Assembly (NCBI GenBank): GCA_021157415.1
Contig: JAGGWN010000072.1
Location: 1-64,000 of the forward strand
Source of the DNA: Bacteroidales bacterium
GTDB taxonomy: Bacteria; Bacteroidota; Bacteroidia; Bacteroidales; VadinHA17
Length of the DNA: 64,000 nucleotides
Reading direction: 5' to 3'
The translations under genes and the position numbers were made by a program. The notes under the pieces are model-generated. The model worked only from the letters and a program-made list of their open reading frames with translations. It was not told the origin of the DNA and ran no database searches. Shown here in pieces: positions 10,772-61,995 of this stretch (positions within the stretch are counted from its first letter, which is position 1; each line of letters starts with the position of its first letter).

Positions 10772-10800
10772 GGATAGTTATTATTTAGTATCAATATGTT

Positions 10801-53747: not shown

Positions 53748-53778
53748 TTTGCATGTTAGTATCTATTTACTAACTTCG
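53748..53778 (+). promoter_or_regulatory. tetR promoter with an operator between its boxes
   Basis: TTTG (53748-53751), 19 bases, then TAACTTCG (53771-53778), one mismatch from TAnnTTTG: a near-ideal Bacteroidota promoter. The 20-base palindrome GTTAGTATCTATTTACTAAC (53755-53774, 7-bp perfect arms) fills the spacer. A dimer bound here would block RNA polymerase, implying self-repression. Confidence 0.75.
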
Positions 53779-53804
53779 CAGCCTGTTAAATAAAATTATG
53801 CAGA

Positions 53805-54383
53805 ATGCAAACTGAAAGACAAAAGGAAATAATCGAAGCAGCCTTGGATCTGATATATAAAAAAGGAATCCAGGGATTAACCATAAAGAATCTTTCTGAA
53901 AAAATAGGGATTACAGAACCTGCCATATATCGTCATTTTGAAAATAAAATCAGTATTCTCGTTTCCATACTTGATTTTTTTAAGAATAATACAGAACAAA
54001 TATTCGAGAATGAATTGAAAAACGATGACAATGCCATTGATAAGATCGAACATCTTTTCAGTCGCCATTTTTCCACTTTCTCAAAAATGCCATCACTGGT
54101 TTCGGTCGTTTTTTCAGAAGAGATCTTTGTCAATGAACCTGTCCTGGTTGGAAAAATTGCTGAAATCATGGATAAAAACGACAAAATTCTCACAGAAATC
54201 ATTACCAATGGTCAAAGAAAAAATGAAATACGGAATGATATTCCCGCTAAATATCTTTCAATCATTATCATGGGTTCTCTGCGTCTGTTTGTAAAAAAAT
54301 GGCAGTTTCTGAAATCTGTTAAAAATCTTCCCAGACAGGGCAAAGAGCTATTCAATTCAATAAAATTGCTGATACAAGAATAA
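53805..54383 (+). CDS. TetR/AcrR family transcriptional regulator
   Basis: A 192-residue TetR-type repressor. The N-terminal helix-turn-helix is classic: RQKEIIEAALDLIYKKGIQGLTIKNLSEKIGITEPAIYRHFENKISILVSILDFF. The remaining ~130 residues are an all-helical ligand-binding domain with no family-specific motif I can name. It has an operator-like palindrome inside its own promoter and lies directly upstream of the RND operon, which carries two similar sites. It therefore probably controls both itself and the transporter; the ligand is unknown. Confidence 0.92.
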   Translation: MQTERQKEIIEAALDLIYKKGIQGLTIKNLSEKIGITEPAIYRHFENKISILVSILDFFKNNTEQIFENELKNDDNAIDKIEHLFSRHFSTFSKMPSLVSVVFSEEIFVNEPVLVGKIAEIMDKNDKILTEIITNGQRKNEIRNDIPAKYLSIIIMGSLRLFVKKWQFLKSVKNLPRQGKELFNSIKLLIQE

Positions 54384-54450
54384 TTTACCGTGACGGATAA
54401 GATAATAAGACGATGATTTTCTAAATACAACCATAAATAGATTAAAACAG

Positions 54451-54477
54451 TCCGGATTTTATTGCCGGATTCTTTTG
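54451..54477 (+). terminator. Possible weak terminator after tetR
   Basis: TCCGG…CCGGA with a 9-base loop followed by TTCTTTT, 68 bases after the tetR stop. Short stem, so weak; it lies just before the tandem operators of the RND gene. Confidence 0.35.
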
Positions 54478-54487
54478 GGTACCTAAA

Positions 54488-54507
54488 GTTAGTGAAGATT
54501 AATTAAC
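54488..54507 (+). promoter_or_regulatory. TetR operator-like site, distal
   Basis: GTTAGTGAAGATTAATTAAC shares 16 of 20 bases with the proximal site at 54521 and has the same GTTAGT…TAAC ends. The two sites start 33 bases apart, about three helix turns, so two dimers could sit on one face. Confidence 0.6.
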
Positions 54508-54520
54508 ATATATAAAGACA

Positions 54521-54540
54521 GTTAGTAAATTATAATTAAC
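54521..54540 (+). promoter_or_regulatory. TetR operator-like site, proximal
   Basis: GTTAGTAAATTATAATTAAC shares 15 of 20 bases with the reverse complement of the tetR palindrome (GTTAGTAAATAGATACTAAC), including the first ten. It ends six bases before the RND start codon. No clear TAnnTTTG box was found nearby. Confidence 0.62.
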
Positions 54541-54546
54541 AAAAAA

Positions 54547-56880
54547 ATGGAAAAGTTTTTAAAAAAGATATTAGACAGGCCCTGGCTGGTCATTGTGTCA
54601 ATCCTGGCCATAAGTGTTTTTTTGTTTTTTCAGATGAAAGAACATTCAAGGATGGAAACCAATCTGGACAAGTACATGCCACAAAATCATCCTGCGTTCA
54701 TTTACAGTGACAGTGCAGAAGCACAGTTTAACATTAAAGATGGGATCATCATAGCACTGCAAAATAAAAAAGGGGTTTTCAATACGGCCACACTGGATAC
54801 GCTAAAACAACTTACCAGGCGTTTGCAGAAAATGCCGGAGATTGAAAAAAGTGATGTTACGTCTCTTTATACGGCCGATAATATTATCGGTACGGAAGAT
54901 GGAATGGATGTCCGGCCTTTTTTCAAGCGGGTTCCCAAATCTTCTGAAAAGCTGGCCGAGATTAAACATAATGTGGAAAAAAATGAAATGATATTTGGCC
55001 GGCTGGTCTCCAATGATGAGACAGTAACCGTGATCGTGGCCGAAATTGATGACGGTGTTTTTTCTCAGGATTTTTACAACAGGATCCTTAAAATGACAAA
55101 AGCATCTTCGACGGATGATATAAAAATTTATGTTGCAGGCCGGCCTATCGTTGAGGGAACGCTGGCATTATTAGGCCCTGCAGACATGCAACGAATGGTA
55201 CCTATCGTTATTATTGTAATTACGCTGGTATTGGTTTTCATTCTTCGCAGCATTAAAAGCACACTGATTACATTGGGTGTTGTTTTTTTCAGCACTATAT
55301 GGGTTTTTGGACTGATGGCCTGGATACGGATCCCGATTTATTCGGTATCCACGATGATACCGGTAATGCTTATTGCCATAGGGGTTGCATATGGGATACA
55401 CCTGTACAGCCATTTGCAACTGTATTTACGAAAAAACCAGGATGCATCCAAAAAAGAGGCAACCCTTGACATGATCCATTACATGTGGAAACCCGTTGCC
55501 ATGACAGCCATTACAACGGCTATCGGATTTATTTCCCTGCTCACCTCCCAGGTTTATCCGATCAAATATTTTGGGTTATTCACTGCTTTTGGTGTCATGG
55601 TCGCCCTGCTGCTGTCCCTTATTTTCATCCCGGCATCCATTATTATTTTCGGACTGCCTAAAGTGAAAATGAACAGGAAAAATACGGAAGAAGAGAAAGG
55701 GCTCTCTTTTCGTTTTGCTGCCGGAGTCATTAAAAAGAAGTGGATCTCCATCATTCTGACTACACTTGTCATTATTGTCTCCATCATCGGTATGCAGAAG
55801 ATATGGATCAATTCAAGTTTTCTTGACAAGTTTGAAAAAGACAGTGATATTGTAAAAACAGACAGGTTTATCAATGAACATTTTGGAGGTACCACAACCC
55901 TGAACCTGATTCTGGACGGGAAAAAACAAAAAGACATCTTTAAGGAACCGGCCGTTTTAAAACTGGTGGAAAAAATGCAGAGGAATACAGAAAATAAGTT
56001 ACAAGTGGTAGGAAACTCATTTTCGCTGGCTGATTATATCGACCGGATGAACAAGGTAATGAATGCCGATAAAGAAGAGTACAACCGTATTCCCGACAGC
56101 AAAAATATGATTGCCCAATATTTGTTATTATATGAAATGTCAGGTGATCCGGAAAACCTGAATAAAGTGGTTAATTACGATTATGATAAACTGAATGTCA
56201 CTTTTCAGTTGAAAAGTGATGATTCAAAGGCCATTAATTCGACAATTGCCAACATAGATTCGTATAAAAAAGATTTTGCCAAATACGGGATTACATTGAA
56301 TTATGCAGGAAGCGGTTATAAAGGGCTTGTTTTTGCCGATCTGATTCTGGAAGGTCAGATCAGAAGTCTGATTATGTCATTAATCATTGTGATCCTTTTA
56401 CTTTCCCTGATGTTCAAAAACATCTGGATAGGACTGTTCGGTTCTGTACCCATTATTGTAACAGCGTTGATCAGTTTCGGGGTAATGGGTTTTTTAGGAA
56501 TCCCATTAAACACCACCACGGCTTTATTATCCAGTATAGCTGTAGGTATCGGCATTGATTACGCCGTACATTTTATTGATCAATACCGTCATAATGCACA
56601 AAACACAGGGGACAAAATGCTTACGGCTCAGCTGACCATGGCTCATTCGGGAAGAGCCATTATTTTCAATGCGATTGCCGTGATCGCAGGATTCCTGGTA
56701 CTTATATTTTCCGTTTTTCCCCCCAACCGTGAGCTTGGCGCCCTGGTGTCGCTCAATATGTTTACGAGTTTCCTGGGTACATTGACTATCCTGCTGGTGC
56801 TGCTGTATGAAAGCAACCTGTATTTCAAAAAAAAAAAAGAAAAAATAGACCATCAAATAAATCAATCTACAAACCATTAA
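54547..56880 (+). CDS. RND/MMPL family transporter
   Basis: A 777-residue inner-membrane transporter of the MMPL/HpnN-like type. Two halves each have one leading TM, an extracytoplasmic domain and a sterol-sensing-like helix bundle: QRMVPIVIIVITLVLVFILRSIKSTLITLGVVFF…GVAYGIHLYSHLQ and SLIMSLIIVILLLSLMF…GIGIDYAVHFIDQYRH. The second keeps the GxxxDY acidic residue expected for proton coupling; the first has GVAYG instead, so it is asymmetric. With the LolA-like protein and barrel downstream it likely moves lipids or hydrophobic molecules across the envelope. No periplasmic adaptor or TolC-type gene is nearby. Confidence 0.88.
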   Translation: MEKFLKKILDRPWLVIVSILAISVFLFFQMKEHSRMETNLDKYMPQNHPAFIYSDSAEAQFNIKDGIIIALQNKKGVFNTATLDTLKQLTRRLQKMPEIEKSDVTSLYTADNIIGTEDGMDVRPFFKRVPKSSEKLAEIKHNVEKNEMIFGRLVSNDETVTVIVAEIDDGVFSQDFYNRILKMTKASSTDDIKIYVAGRPIVEGTLALLGPADMQRMVPIVIIVITLVLVFILRSIKSTLITLGVVFFSTIWVFGLMAWIRIPIYSVSTMIPVMLIAIGVAYGIHLYSHLQLYLRKNQDASKKEATLDMIHYMWKPVAMTAITTAIGFISLLTSQVYPIKYFGLFTAFGVMVALLLSLIFIPASIIIFGLPKVKMNRKNTEEEKGLSFRFAAGVIKKKWISIILTTLVIIVSIIGMQKIWINSSFLDKFEKDSDIVKTDRFINEHFGGTTTLNLILDGKKQKDIFKEPAVLKLVEKMQRNTENKLQVVGNSFSLADYIDRMNKVMNADKEEYNRIPDSKNMIAQYLLLYEMSGDPENLNKVVNYDYDKLNVTFQLKSDDSKAINSTIANIDSYKKDFAKYGITLNYAGSGYKGLVFADLILEGQIRSLIMSLIIVILLLSLMFKNIWIGLFGSVPIIVTALISFGVMGFLGIPLNTTTALLSSIAVGIGIDYAVHFIDQYRHNAQNTGDKMLTAQLTMAHSGRAIIFNAIAVIAGFLVLIFSVFPPNRELGALVSLNMFTSFLGTLTILLVLLYESNLYFKKKKEKIDHQINQSTNH

Positions 56881-56891
56881 ATTAAAAGAAA

Positions 56892-57671
56892 ATGAAAACA
56901 TTAATATTGAAGACATCCATTATTGCAATGTTCTTTGCAATAAATTTTGGTGCCCAGGCACAATTAACGGGGAGACAAATCATTGAAAAAGTGTACAACC
57001 GGCCTACCGGGAAGGATCAGACCTCGGAACTTACCATGACTCTGATCAATAAAAACGGAAGTGAAAGAATAAGGCAGCTCAAGCAGTTTATCAAAGATAA
57101 CGGAAAGATCAAGAAAAAGATCATGTTTTTCATATCTCCTGCAGATGTGAGAAACACTTCTTTCATGAACTGGAGTTATGATAACAGCAGCAAACCGGAT
57201 GATCAGTGGATCTACCTGCCGGCACTGAAAAAGATCAAAAGAATTTCGAGTGAGAGTAAAAGTGACTACTTCATGGGGTCCGACTTTACCTATGATGATC
57301 TCGGCGACCGTAAGGTGGATGACGACACCCACAAACTACTCCGAGAAGAGAGTATTAACGGAGTTGATTACTACGTCGTTCAGAGCATTCCGAAAGATCC
57401 TGACTATATGTACAGTAAAACCATTACCTGGATACGCAAAGACAATTTCATGGGACTGAAAAAAGAATTCTATGATGAAGATGGTGCATTACTTAAGATG
57501 CTTCATGTGGTAAAATTTGAAAAAGTATCCGGCATCCTGATCATTACCCATTCGGAAATGGAAAATGTACAAAAAAAACATAAAACCATTATGCAATTGA
57601 AAAACGTAAAAATCAATACGGGTATTTCTGATTCATTTTTCACTGAAAGGATGATGATGAGAGGTATTTAG
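56892..57671 (+). CDS. LolA-like outer-membrane lipoprotein-sorting protein (DUF1329-like)
   Basis: A 259-residue periplasmic protein with a signal peptide (LKTSIIAMFFAINFGAQAQ). The mature chain (TGRQIIEKVYNRPTGKDQTSELTMTLINKNGSERIRQLKQF, DQWIYLPALKKIKRISSESKSDYFMGSDFTYDDLGDR, YVVQSIPKDPDYMYSKTITWIRKDNFMGLKKEFYDEDG) fits the LolA-like outer-membrane sorting family that accompanies MMPL transporters. It probably carries lipid or hydrophobic cargo from the transporter. The 11-base gap from the RND gene indicates one operon. Confidence 0.85.
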   Translation: MKTLILKTSIIAMFFAINFGAQAQLTGRQIIEKVYNRPTGKDQTSELTMTLINKNGSERIRQLKQFIKDNGKIKKKIMFFISPADVRNTSFMNWSYDNSSKPDDQWIYLPALKKIKRISSESKSDYFMGSDFTYDDLGDRKVDDDTHKLLREESINGVDYYVVQSIPKDPDYMYSKTITWIRKDNFMGLKKEFYDEDGALLKMLHVVKFEKVSGILIITHSEMENVQKKHKTIMQLKNVKINTGISDSFFTERMMMRGI

Positions 57672-57693
57672 TGTGATATACAAAGCTAAAAAA

Positions 57694-58944
57694 ATGAAAA
57701 ACAAAGTAATTATTTTTTTATTACTGGTCACCTCGGCAAGCCTGTCTTTTGGTCAGCTTGTTGACATAACCGGTTTTGCCAGAACCTACGAAGGAGTTAA
57801 GGTTAAAGACGGGGATTTTGCCATCATCCAGCAGACCCTGAACCTGAATTTTGAGAAACGGGGAGAGAAAGTCGCATTCAAAGCCAATCCAATGCTGTAT
57901 TTCTACAATGCCGACAGTCTGAATTTCACAATGCGTGAGATATATACCGATATGTATTTTAAACATTTTGACGTACGTTTGGGCAAGCAGCAGATTGTCT
58001 GGGGGAAAGCCGATGGAGTGTTTATCACCGATATCGTCTCCCCGCTCAATCTTACAGAATTTCTTTTACCGGACTTTGATGAGATCAGGACAGGGGTGAT
58101 CGCTGCCAAGATTGATTACTACACTGGAAACAGCACCATTGAAGGGATATGGATCCCTCAGTTTACACCTACGACCAGGCCTCAACCGGGATCCATATGG
58201 TATATCCAACCTGATTTTCCGGCCCCACCCACTTTCGACTGGAGTAAAAGCAAGGTGAAAGCGTCATTGAAAAACAGCGAAGCATTTCTGAAATACTCCT
58301 TCATGGGGTCAAACATTGACTTTGATCTGATGGGCGGATATACATGGGATGCCAACCCGACAATGCATGCGCAGAAAAAAATGGAAATGGACACTGCAAC
58401 CATGCCTCCCACTCCGGTGTTAACAGGATTACTGATCACCCCGGAACATCACCGGTTATATGTTACCGGTGGATCTTTCAGTACGGAGATAGGAGGTTTT
58501 ATCTTACGCGGAGAAGCTGCCTATTATGATGGAAAGTATTTTCAAACCATGGATCCAAAGGCCGAGGATGCTCTTATTCAGAAGGATTACATAAACTATG
58601 TCGTCGGACTGGATTACAGCATAGGAGGTGTAAAGGTGAGTGGCCAGTTCATCCAGAAGCTAATCCTCGACTATAACGATTATATCACCGAGGATAAATC
58701 CCAGAATATGGCTACCTTCCTGGCACATTACGATATGCTCAGGGAAACGTTACATCTTGAGCTGTTTTCATATATCGGATTGACCAACGGGGATGCACTT
58801 ATCCGGCCAAAAATCACTTATGATTTCGACGACAGCTTTAATATTTTATTGGGGAGCAACATTTTTGTAGGAGACCGGGACGGCTGGTTCGGTCAATATA
58901 AGGACAATACCATGGCTTATGTTAAGGTCAAATATAATTTTTAG
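57694..58944 (+). CDS. Porin-like outer-membrane protein (DUF1302-like)
   Basis: A 416-residue exported protein (signal peptide KNKVIIFLLLVTSASLSFGQ) with a barrel-like strand pattern. The segment VRLGKQQIVWGKADGVFITDIVSPLNLTEFLLPDFDEIRTGV is typical of DUF1302-type outer-membrane proteins, which in Proteobacteria accompany DUF1329 and MMPL proteins. The start is the ATG at 57694; the track begins at a GTG seven codons earlier. A strong terminator follows. It would complete an inner-membrane, periplasm, outer-membrane path. Confidence 0.75.
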   Translation: MKNKVIIFLLLVTSASLSFGQLVDITGFARTYEGVKVKDGDFAIIQQTLNLNFEKRGEKVAFKANPMLYFYNADSLNFTMREIYTDMYFKHFDVRLGKQQIVWGKADGVFITDIVSPLNLTEFLLPDFDEIRTGVIAAKIDYYTGNSTIEGIWIPQFTPTTRPQPGSIWYIQPDFPAPPTFDWSKSKVKASLKNSEAFLKYSFMGSNIDFDLMGGYTWDANPTMHAQKKMEMDTATMPPTPVLTGLLITPEHHRLYVTGGSFSTEIGGFILRGEAAYYDGKYFQTMDPKAEDALIQKDYINYVVGLDYSIGGVKVSGQFIQKLILDYNDYITEDKSQNMATFLAHYDMLRETLHLELFSYIGLTNGDALIRPKITYDFDDSFNILLGSNIFVGDRDGWFGQYKDNTMAYVKVKYNF

Positions 58945-58973: not shown

Positions 58974-59013
58974 ATAGCAGAGATGTCATGTATGGTGTCT
59001 CTGCTATTTTATT
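58974..59013 (+). terminator. Terminator of the RND operon
   Basis: ATAGCAGAGA pairs perfectly with TCTCTGCTAT (10 bp, 14-base loop) and TTTTATT follows. It sits in the 67-base convergent gap and its T-rich tail overlaps the end of the DUF4252 gene on the other strand. Confidence 0.8.
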
Positions 59014-59569
59014 ATTCTTCTTTTTTGAAATTAAAATCGTCCTGATTGATCTTATAAACAATCTTTCCCAGGGTTTTCATGTCGATATCCCCCACCAGGC
59101 TCAGGCCGAGGAATTCGTCTTTTGAGGTAATCATGATCATGGCCTCGTCCGTTTTGTCTCCTTCCTCATGTACCTTCACCACAATCTTCTCTCCACCCTG
59201 ATTTATCATCATCAGGTCTTCGAAGTTTTCCTTCTCCAGGGCTTTGGTAAAACGGGCAACTACTTCCGGCAATTTCTTCTCTTTTGTTTCCGCCGCATTG
59301 ATAATAATTACCTTGATGGTCTCCATCCCTGACAAAAAGTTCTTTACATCCTGATCATCCTGTCCTTTCATCACCATACTGACCAGGCCGGTAGGAATAC
59401 GGAAGGTATATACACCGGGCAAGCCTTCATAATCGCGCATCACATGGTCAGCCACCGGATCCGGTCCGGAGGAGCAGGAGGAAAACAAAATGAAGGACAC
59501 TGTTGAGATAAACAATGCTATCCTGACCGGGAAACTTGTTTTCTTTTTCTGTGTTATCATTTTTTTCAT
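59012..59569 (-). CDS. DUF4252 lipoprotein
   Basis: A 185-residue predicted lipoprotein (ALFISTVSFILFSSCSSG, lipobox Cys). The rest (GPDPVADHVMRDYEGLPGVYTFRIPTGLVSMVMKGQDDQDVKNFLSGMETIKVIIINA … IVKVHEEGDKTDEAMIMITSKDEFLGLSLVGDIDMKTLGKIV) follows the DUF4252 fold shared with the two other genes in this locus. Function unknown; DUF4252 genes are widespread in Bacteroidota next to ECF sigma operons. It is last in the unit, and a G-rich run sits about 10 bases upstream of its start. Confidence 0.8.
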   Translation of the reverse strand: MKKMITQKKKTSFPVRIALFISTVSFILFSSCSSGPDPVADHVMRDYEGLPGVYTFRIPTGLVSMVMKGQDDQDVKNFLSGMETIKVIIINAAETKEKKLPEVVARFTKALEKENFEDLMMINQGGEKIVVKVHEEGDKTDEAMIMITSKDEFLGLSLVGDIDMKTLGKIVYKINQDDFNFKKEE

Positions 59570-59579
59570 GAATATAATG

Positions 59580-59601
59580 CCCCCTCCCCAACCCTCCCCC
59601 G
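59580..59601 (-). promoter_or_regulatory. G-quadruplex-type G-run cluster before the DUF4252 lipoprotein start
   Basis: On the transcribed (minus) strand: five G, A, three G, TT, four G, A, six G. Four runs with loops of 1-2 bases fit the quadruplex pattern, ending about 10 bases upstream of the start, where the ribosome would load. An adjacent CCCTTTCCC could instead pair with it as a hairpin. Confidence 0.5.
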
Positions 59602-59638
59602 GGAAAGGGAAAGGAGAAGCTGAAAGGGAGAAATATTA

Positions 59639-60175
59639 TTACTTCTTTTCTTTTTGTTTCGAGTCATTAAGTTTTTGCAGTTCCTCCATCCCGCTTACAT
59701 TGATAGCTTTGGAGAGCTGGGCAATCTCCTTCATATCGATAATACCGCGAATGTCTATCACGGCATTGTCGTCCTTCCCTCCTACCACCAACAGCAGTTC
59801 TATAACCTTCCCGTCTTTCTCTTTCATCAGAAACTTCACTTTCTGATCCTTTTGCTGTACGACCATCAGCTCTTCATATTCCTTCACAGGAAGACTTTTC
59901 ATGATCTCGTCATAAAAATTCACTTTTTCCTGTGACGGGGCATTGTCGTCCGTAGCCAGAATGCGAATACTTTTAAGATTGTTCATCATCTTATTAAATT
60001 CAGGGTCATCCAATTGTGCCTCGGAAAACATACTGAACATCTTGCTGGTAATATACACCGTAGTATAGCCGTCTTTCCCGCCATATTTGTCAAACAGTTG
60101 GTCCACGGCATCCTTTTGTGCGAAAACGGGAACAGCCATCGATGTCAGCAATACTGCAAAAATCCATTTTTTCAT
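59639..60175 (-). CDS. DUF4252 exported protein
   Basis: A 178-residue exported protein with signal peptide KKWIFAVLLTSMAVPVFA and mature start QKDAVDQLFDKYGGKDGYTTVYITSKMFSMFS. Later DEIMKSLPVKEYEELMVVQQKDQKVKFLMKE and LLLVVGGKDDNAVIDIRGII match the DUF4252 protein at 61456 closely, for example SEVVRDLPVKGYEELMVIQ and LLLVAGGKDDNALIIIRG. Tandem paralogues flank the sigma and anti-sigma genes. I start at MKKWIF; two codons more (MK) are possible. Confidence 0.85.
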   Translation of the reverse strand: MKKWIFAVLLTSMAVPVFAQKDAVDQLFDKYGGKDGYTTVYITSKMFSMFSEAQLDDPEFNKMMNNLKSIRILATDDNAPSQEKVNFYDEIMKSLPVKEYEELMVVQQKDQKVKFLMKEKDGKVIELLLVVGGKDDNAVIDIRGIIDMKEIAQLSKAINVSGMEELQKLNDSKQKEKK

Positions 60176-60191
60176 TTTCATAGCGGTAAAT

Positions 60192-60830
60192 TTATTTATT
60201 TGTATTATTATTTGTATTATTATTATTTTTCAAATATTTGTTTATTATTTTTTGGGTATGTGATAAGGTTTTAAGTTGTCTCATCATCCCGACTCCGGCA
60301 GACAGGTGATTCAGATATTTCAGCTCGTTTACAGGTTTGGCTGCTTGTTGTATCCGGCTCATCTCCCTGGCCGGTGTATTTATTTCATCCAGCCGTGTCA
60401 GTTGGCCGGCACCTTTATTAAACTGTTGTGATACATACAAAAGAATACGTTGGGTTTCCTGATAAGCCAGTTGAGGATCGGAAAAGGTGTCCTTTGGAAC
60501 TTGCCTCATCCAGGCAAAATATACCCCCACCAGTATGAGCAAAGAGGCTGCCACAGAGAGACTCCAGGCCAGGACAGGTTTGATGTGCAGACGGCGCACC
60601 CTGGTTTCCGGCACATGGACATCTATCAGCTTTTCCAGACTGGCAGAGAGCAAAGAGGAGGCTTTTCCATTCCGGGCATTGGCCATCGCCAAAAAATATT
60701 CCCGATCTGCTGCCAAAGGTTCCGGCACCTTGCCGCTCAGAAAATAGTCGCGCAGTTTCTTTTCTTCCTCCAGTGTAGTCCCGCCGTTATAGAATTTCTC
60801 TAACAGCTTTTGTATCTGTTCCTGTTTCAT
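60192..60830 (-). CDS. Membrane-anchored anti-sigma-factor-like protein
   Basis: A 212-residue protein with an N-terminal soluble segment (MKQEQIQKLLEKFYNGGTTLEEEKKLRDYFLSG) often seen in Bacteroidota proteins encoded after ECF sigma genes, one TM (VLAWSLSVAASLLILVGVYFAWM, ~85-107) and a periplasmic remainder. It overlaps the sigma gene by 44 bases, so coupled translation and an anti-sigma role are likely. The C-terminus is Asn/Thr-rich (KNNNNTNNNTNK) from a triplet microsatellite. Confidence 0.7.
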   Translation of the reverse strand: MKQEQIQKLLEKFYNGGTTLEEEKKLRDYFLSGKVPEPLAADREYFLAMANARNGKASSLLSASLEKLIDVHVPETRVRRLHIKPVLAWSLSVAASLLILVGVYFAWMRQVPKDTFSDPQLAYQETQRILLYVSQQFNKGAGQLTRLDEINTPAREMSRIQQAAKPVNELKYLNHLSAGVGMMRQLKTLSHTQKIINKYLKNNNNTNNNTNK

Positions 60831-61329
60831 TGCTTATTGTTTTAATATAGGCCTCTCTCACACTCTTCCGAGCCCTGGACAACACGACCCGGACATTGTT
60901 CACCGTCATATTCACTGTTTCCGCTATTTCCTCAAAACCGAGTCCTTCCACATCGCGCATATGCAGGATGGCACGCTGGGTTTCGGGCAGTTGATGTACG
61001 ATCTGCATGACATTTTTCACTTTTTCTTTCCGGTCAAGCTGCACATCCGGGGGATCTTCTGGCTGTTGCTTCTCCAGGATCCCCGGTTCCTCCATAGATA
61101 CGGTATGCCGGGCCTTGATCTTATCGAGACAGAGGTTCCGCGTGACCGTAAAGGCCAATGCCTCCTTGCTGCGATATGTATCCACTTTTTCTCCCATCTT
61201 TAACAGCTTCAAAAACACTTCCTGCACTATGTCTTCCGCCTCTTCATGATCGCGGCTGAACCGCAGGGCAAAACGATACAGTTTATCGCTCATCGGCAAG
61301 AAAGTCTCCTTAAATTCCCGTGCATCCAT
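60787..61329 (-). CDS. ECF RNA polymerase sigma factor
   Basis: A 180-residue ECF-type sigma-70 factor. Region 2 is MDAREFKETFLPMSDKLYRFALRFSRDHEEAEDIVQEVFLKLL, and region 4 is LPETQRAILHMRDVEGLGFEEIAETVNMTVNNVRVVLSRARKSVREAY. I start at MDAREF; a 20-residue extension to 61389 is possible. The 44-base overlap with the next gene and DUF4252 genes on both sides form the usual Bacteroidota envelope-type sigma operon; the target genes are unknown. Confidence 0.9.
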   Translation of the reverse strand: MDAREFKETFLPMSDKLYRFALRFSRDHEEAEDIVQEVFLKLLKMGEKVDTYRSKEALAFTVTRNLCLDKIKARHTVSMEEPGILEKQQPEDPPDVQLDRKEKVKNVMQIVHQLPETQRAILHMRDVEGLGFEEIAETVNMTVNNVRVVLSRARKSVREAYIKTISNETGTDTKAVREIL

Positions 61330-61455
61330 ATTGTCCGGTTCTGTTTGCCCTGTTCTATACTGAAAGTTAAAGATACTGTTTTTATGCATAAGGAAATCCC
61401 GGAAATTCCGAAAGTTTATCCGGCCTTCCCCGGGACTTGCCCTGCACGGTGGTTG

Positions 61456-61995
61456 TTACTTTCCTGCTTCCAGTTCCTCCAGAACCTCCAGATATTCCAG
61501 TCCGGCTCCATGCACATTCATTCCTCTGGATATGGATACCAGGCTGTTAGGTTTAAGTTTGCCCCGGATAATGATCAGGGCATTGTCATCTTTTCCGCCG
61601 GCCACCAGTAACAGCTCCCTGATATAACCGGCTTCCATACGCGCCAGAATCTTCACTTTTTCATTTTTTTCCTGTATTACCATCAGCTCTTCATAGCCTT
61701 TGACCGGCAGGTCACGCACCACCTCACTGTAAAAATCCACCCTTGTATTACCGACCTGATCGTCATCCCTTGCCAGGATTTTAATTGACTCCAGTCCGCT
61801 GATCAGTTCGGCGGTTTCCTTATCCTCCGGGTCTAGCTGAGACACCAGGTTGAACATTCCTTTGGTAATATGCACAGTGGTAAATCCGTCTTTCCCGGCG
61901 TATTTCGCAAACACACGGTCAGCCGCACTTTCCTGGGCCTGTAATAAAAACGGCATCAGCAATCCTGCCAGCAATAAAAAACCTGTCTTTTTCAT
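61456..61995 (-). CDS. DUF4252 exported protein
   Basis: A 179-residue exported DUF4252 protein (signal KKTGFLLLAGLLMPFLLQAQ; mature ESAADRVFAKYAGKDGFTTVHITKGMFNLVSQL). It shares the family pattern with the gene at 59639, especially YAGKDGFTTVHITKGMF versus YGGKDGYTTVYITSKMF. It is first in the order DUF4252, sigma, anti-sigma, DUF4252, DUF4252, with 126 bases to the sigma gene. No catalytic residues are apparent. Confidence 0.85.
   Translation of the reverse strand: MKKTGFLLLAGLLMPFLLQAQESAADRVFAKYAGKDGFTTVHITKGMFNLVSQLDPEDKETAELISGLESIKILARDDDQVGNTRVDFYSEVVRDLPVKGYEELMVIQEKNEKVKILARMEAGYIRELLLVAGGKDDNALIIIRGKLKPNSLVSISRGMNVHGAGLEYLEVLEELEAGK

Follow-up and report, generated by a model that had tools for sequence, protein, structure and literature searches.

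The window analysed here is a 64,000-nt stretch of a Bacteroidales contig, and it contains a predicted operon that begins with a TetR-family regulator gene (tetR) and continues with genes for an RND transporter, a LolA-like protein and a DUF1302 protein, all of known protein families (Table 1). The tetR product combines a TetR_N domain (PF00440, 44.3 bits against a cut-off of 24) with a YsiA/FadR-like C-terminal domain and misses the cut-off of the FadR equivalog NF053878 (64 versus 200 bits). The transporter carries MMPL domains (PF03176, 161.8 bits against a cut-off of 20.5) and likewise misses the curated cut-off of TIGR00921 (259 versus 351.9 bits). Three related 20-bp palindromes, O1 to O3, lie within the first part of the operon, one in the tetR promoter and two ahead of the transporter, together with a predicted intrinsic terminator that sits directly upstream of O2. 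Beyond the operon, the minus strand at 59012-61995 encodes a PG0214/GFO_1088-family ECF sigma factor, next to which lie DUF4252 genes.

Table 1 Features of the tetR-transporter locus, in window coordinates.
Feature	Position	Strand	Remarks
-33 box TTTG of the tetR promoter	53748-53751	+	19-bp spacer to TAACTTCG
O1 GTTAGTATCTATTTACTAAC, promoter-type predicted TetR operator	53755-53774	.	16/20 positions palindromic
-7 box TAACTTCG (consensus TAnnTTTG)	53771-53778	+	first four bases overlapped by O1
tetR	53805-54383	+	192 aa; TetR_N and YsiA/FadR-like C-terminal domain
RNA hairpin of the predicted terminator	54449-54471	+	stem about TCCGG/CCGGA; shuffle p 0.005
T-run TTCTTTT	54470-54476	+	-18 to -12 relative to O2
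O2 GTTAGTGAAGATTAATTAAC, leader-type predicted TetR operator	54488-54507	.	top matrix score in the window
O3 GTTAGTAAATTATAATTAAC, extra predicted operator	54521-54540	.	peculiar to this genome
MMPL/HAE3-like RND transporter	54547-56880	+	777 aa; PF03176 2.6e-47
LolA-like outer-membrane lipoprotein-sorting family protein	56892-57671	+	PF17131 2.4e-66
DUF1302 outer-membrane family protein	57673-58944	+	PF06980 7.9e-13; last gene of the predicted operon

Several described systems share parts of this inventory. AmeABCD of Castellaniella is an HAE3-type RND pump with DUF1302 and LolA-like partners, as here, but no AmeC-like gene was seen in this operon, whose LolA-like protein falls in PF17131, not primarily in DUF1329 (PMC6394551). 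Similar gene content, at the level of protein families, is also found in Porphyromonas gingivalis (PG1178-PG1181) and in Prevotella loci, where a TetR, an MMPL transporter and a LolA-like gene occur together and are strongly induced by iron limitation; no operator or terminator arrangement was noted in that account (PMC10434189). The regulator itself shares its TetR_N and YsiA-like C-terminal domains with the Bacillus-type FadR/YsiA proteins. The FadR operator, TGAATGANTANTCATTCA, appears to have its spacing and inner bases in common with the operator in the window. The two part company in their outer bases, and the predicted target here is an RND operon. No paper turned up in a limited search of the literature for this operator and for the FadR consensus string.

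The sequence-only reading of this DNA had placed the three sites exactly where we find them. The starts of O2 and O3 are 33 bp apart, and 6 bases separate the end of O3 from the transporter ATG. Of the similarities that had been given to the two transporter sites, 16/20 matches hold for O2 against O3 only, and 15/20 are reached only by O1 against O3 read on the other strand (14/20 otherwise), while O1 and O2 share 14/20. Allowing one mismatch and counting per strand, GTTAGT-N10-TAAC occurs eight times in the window against 2.4 expected; O1, O2 and O3 are its only perfect matches, and nothing else in the 3.28-Mb genome lies within two mismatches of GTTAGTNANTANTNACTAAC. A matrix built from 140 orthologous sites, with the window excluded, ranks O2 (21.8 bits), O1 (18.5) and O3 (17.1) first to third in the window. 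The clustering of the three sites is not due to chance, and on sequence grounds we take all three to be real operators. The fourth matrix match, GATAGTTATTATTTAGTATC at 10773-10792, scores 12.3 bits, about 5 bits under the trio, and is probably a chance hit.

The relatives found belong to Bacteroidales and to other Bacteroidota; a few contigs carry labels such as Neomarinimicrobiota and Latescibacterota. In most of about 100 orthologous loci, which are related by descent so that counts across them are not independent, a 20-bp palindrome, GTTAGTgAATATTaACTAAC, is present at tetR between the -33 and -7 boxes. O1 occupies this place in the window: it begins 4 bp 3' of the TTTG, and the 19-bp spacing between the boxes is that of a Bacteroidetes -33/-7 promoter. 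The main promoter type, represented by 54 non-redundant tetR upstream regions, has a nearly invariant operator whose right half runs straight into the TTTG of the -7 box (88-100% conserved per position), with a TTTG-like -33 element at -7 to -4 ahead of the operator left half. In a second set of tetR upstream regions the operator instead lies immediately 3' of the -7 box. The outer operator bases covary with Pro/Ser and Ile/Phe in the recognition helix: EPA helices go mostly with GTT, and ESA or EAA helices mostly with GTG or GTA. Mutual information at helix positions 14 and 17 reaches z about 9-10 against shuffles, a score that relatedness among the loci inflates. This is the pattern that would be expected from a TetR that binds the palindrome. 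Predicted autorepression through O1, as had been proposed, is well supported because the operator is conserved, sits within the regulator's own -33/-7 promoter and covaries with the recognition helix.

Ahead of the orthologous transporters that follow tetR there is almost always one site, GTTAGTTAATATTAACAAAC or GTTAGTGAATATTAATTAAC, which in most loci stops 0-20 bp short of the ATG and of which O2 is the counterpart; its left half is invariant and its right half deviates from the palindrome. Nearly all loci with a tetR-transporter gap of at least 50 bp have this second operator. The proposal that the same TetR controls the transporter is supported by this matching single site, and in the orthologues both the O1 and the O2 types are conserved. 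O3, on the other hand, has no counterpart in orthologues except for a possible tandem copy in one locus (L113), so it was ruled out as a conserved second site.

A promoter is much harder to find here than at tetR. TAnnTTTG occurs in 0 of 46 transporter leaders, and the best score for TTTG-N18-21-TAnnTTTG upstream of transporters is no better than in shuffled sequence, while tetR upstream regions score far above shuffles; a standard -33/-7 promoter ahead of the transporter was ruled out on these two counts. An Escherichia coli-type promoter scan gave 5 hits against 4.5 expected, which is no signal, and an Rfam search of the region gave a chance match to JPX_2 alone. The earlier proposal that O2 and O3 form a cooperative pair repressing a transporter promoter therefore does not hold up well, since O3 is missing from nearly all orthologues and O2 has no recognisable promoter beside it. 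The 33-bp spacing, close to three helical turns, would suit such a pair, and both sites fit the orthologue matrix, but we now consider this reading improbable.

What does lie in front of the transporter operator is a T-run, and it lies at a fixed distance. Across orthologues the T-run is found at -18 to -12 from the operator with T at up to 95% per position; one of the two spacing analyses favoured the offset -18, and the unbiased run-length analysis agrees. Runs of at least five T end at -14 to -10 from the operator in 29 of 32 cases, against 0.64 in shuffles. T-run and operator keep a tight distance (quartiles 10-12 bp); T-run and ATG are more loosely spaced (40-50). Just 5' of the T-run, 31 of 46 leaders have a hairpin that folds better than shuffles, with a mean folding z of -2.5; about a third of the leaders have no such hairpin, which counts against the roadblock reading given below. 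The hairpins are mutually unrelated in sequence, yet their spacing to the operator is fixed. In the window the hairpin segment folds at -10.6 kcal/mol (z -2.4) and is directly followed by the T-run, as in an intrinsic terminator; a stock terminator scan did not report it because its loop of 9 bases exceeds the limit of 8. Taking the T-run as a -33 box is disfavoured by the presence of hairpins and by the scarcity of TTTG, which just 7 of the 46 leaders contain.

The tetR gene is flanked by two operators in nearly all loci, which would also allow a DNA loop between O1 and O2 held by contacts between TetR dimers. TetR-family proteins usually act as dimers, however, and the O1-O2 distance is very variable (a tetR-transporter gap of 63 to 858 bp plus tetR itself). 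A loop would moreover leave the fixed T-run spacing unexplained, and we hold it to be very improbable. Equally improbable is a further role of the palindromes in the mRNA, where a hairpin close to the start codon would restrain translation. The leader palindrome does fold, at -3.4 kcal/mol, but this is weak, and the operator bases are kept as a DNA palindrome that covaries with the TetR helix. In the window O2 and O3 can also pair in RNA to give one long hairpin (54482-54550, -8 kcal/mol, z -2.0), which is possibly a side effect of the extra site O3.

In every locus in which the two were found together, the transporter gene follows tetR in the same orientation. Many loci were gathered by a tetR query, and linkage to tetR in that set is partly selected because tetR itself was the query. 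A search by DNA alone, for T5-N8..13-GTTAGTnAnTATTAAC in 393 Bacteroidales genomes, is free of that bias. It matched 11 genomes, in all of which the module lies behind a tetR on the same strand; eight of the 11 modules precede a transporter and three precede other genes. Where the module precedes unrelated genes, namely those for degenerate TetR-like proteins, small cysteine-containing proteins and a NorZ-like nitric-oxide reductase, its T-run ends at -9 to -13. The module occurs in many Bacteroidales families and ahead of several unrelated target genes. In two loci the T-run and operator stand immediately behind tetR even though a further stretch intervenes before the transporter. Three tight tetR-transporter pairs (gaps of 18, 44 and 46 bp) have neither the terminator nor the second operator. 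In locus L130, a 72%-identical transporter has no adjoining tetR and no T-run; there a perfect palindrome lies inside TTTG-N19-TAACTTTG. A promoter-type site was also found in locus L133, with no tetR on the examined part of the contig.

The terminator-operator layout suggests that the bound regulator helps to end transcription short of the pump genes. We propose that a single tetR promoter drives the operon and that TetR on O2 acts as a roadblock that enforces the terminator, a reading to which we give a probability of roughly 55%. The adjacent TetR-family protein would bind all three palindromes; on O1 it would cover the -33/-7 boxes of its own promoter. The tetR and transporter genes would be transcribed mainly from the tetR promoter, with a terminator of moderate strength between them. 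TetR on O2, 10-12 bp past the T-run, would hold RNA polymerase on the T-run and so let the hairpin release the transcript; general RNA polymerase geometry implies that the front edge of a polymerase paused there would reach O2. The repressed state would then yield little TetR and almost no pump. A ligand, perhaps an acyl-CoA or another lipophilic molecule given the FadR-like domain, would remove TetR, so that the promoter opens and the terminator turns leaky. O3 would be a genome-specific second block. The sequence itself shows the sites and their conservation, their placement in the tetR promoter, the terminator with its spacing, the missing standard promoter at the transporter and the association with tetR; binding, read-through, the roadblock and the ligand are what we infer from this arrangement. 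That O2 at its fixed distance makes termination efficient and that induction opens promoter and terminator together, as a ligand-gated terminator, is in our judgement a matter of even odds.

The chief rival is that the terminator merely ends the tetR transcript and that a weak, non-consensus transporter promoter in the T-run and operator stretch is occluded by TetR on O2 (and O3). It is common for a promoter to follow a terminator, the T-run could stand in for a weak -33 element, with bases rich in A/T at a plausible spacing within O2, and the O2-type site lies 6-20 bp ahead of most start codons. An A/T-rich transporter promoter that lacks the standard boxes may exist, and we count this against the roadblock reading. 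The rival nevertheless has to accommodate a -33/-7 signal that is clear at tetR but not above shuffles at the transporter, and leaders that are devoid of TAnnTTTG. It also sits poorly with a DNA-only search that never returned the module without an upstream tetR, and with the transporter of L130, which stands apart from tetR and does bear a canonical -33/-7 promoter. We consider it unlikely, though well ahead of the alternatives discussed above.

Roadblocks, in which a repressor that sits beyond the transcription start halts the elongating polymerase, are well documented in bacteria for PurR, GalR, ArsR, LexA, CcpA and CodY, with LacI as the model (PMC10310618, PMC4132739). The arrangement proposed here would differ in that the operator lies at a fixed spacing behind an intrinsic terminator within the repressor's own operon, a coupling that a limited literature search did not find described for bacteria. 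In E. coli it is mostly Mfd that clears a roadblocked polymerase (PMC4132739); a terminator would then not be strictly required, which counts against our reading. The Pol I terminator matches the layout, with the same order of hairpin, T-rich element and Reb1/Nsi1 site. There Pol I stops 15 bp short of the protein site, and the T-rich element and the roadblock jointly push the polymerase back to the hairpin (PMC12366685). This is an analogy and not homology: Pol I terminators are eukaryotic and constitutive, whereas the proposed blocker here is a ligand-responsive repressor, and a ligand-gated terminator would be the bacterial match to them in layout. Caution is called for by the same Pol I assays, in which other roadblocks (LacI, LexA) gave no efficient hairpin termination at a distance (PMC12366685). 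Chlamydia YtgR between trpR and trpBA was considered as a precedent and dropped, because what is described there is the control of a second promoter.

Intrinsic terminators and roadblocks tend to be viewed as separate controls. If the conserved, fixed geometry between repressor site and terminator has the role proposed, a single protein would shut its own operon at two places, the promoter and an internal gate, which would account for production of the regulator without the costly pump. The signature of terminator, 10-12 bp and operator could then be used in genome scans to find similar gates, and the module could serve as a compact part for engineering tight switches.

Six loci have, between tetR and the terminator, a gene for a conserved small cupin-like protein that ends in VRVLVVKAPKPT, sometimes accompanied by one for a DsrE-like protein (both named from their sequence); the cupin-like gene is absent in the window. 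With such genes in front of it, the gate would divide a regulatory front part from the transporter. The module is not universal, and was rejected as such, given that a sister subgroup with ESA helices has no hairpin and carries the operator inside or before other genes. TolC-like genes of this subgroup carry the operator within their reading frames or where these begin, with LVNIH codons in most; an operator within the first codons lies in transcribed DNA, and we count this in favour of the roadblock reading. Six loci with such operators also have a AAAAAAATTT stretch upstream.

In two further loci a leader operator comes about 70 bp after a promoter-type one, an arrangement in keeping with the proposed roadblock. 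These two are among six loci in which TetR-like proteins of about 184 aa with a decayed DNA-binding domain are encoded behind a leader operator; in two such proteins that were tested, TetR_N gave no match or fell below the cut-off, and they are possibly non-binding partners of the regulator. In locus L152 the module stands ahead of the NorZ-type nitric-oxide reductase-like gene, again named from its sequence, and with such a target the reach of the regulator family may extend beyond pumps.
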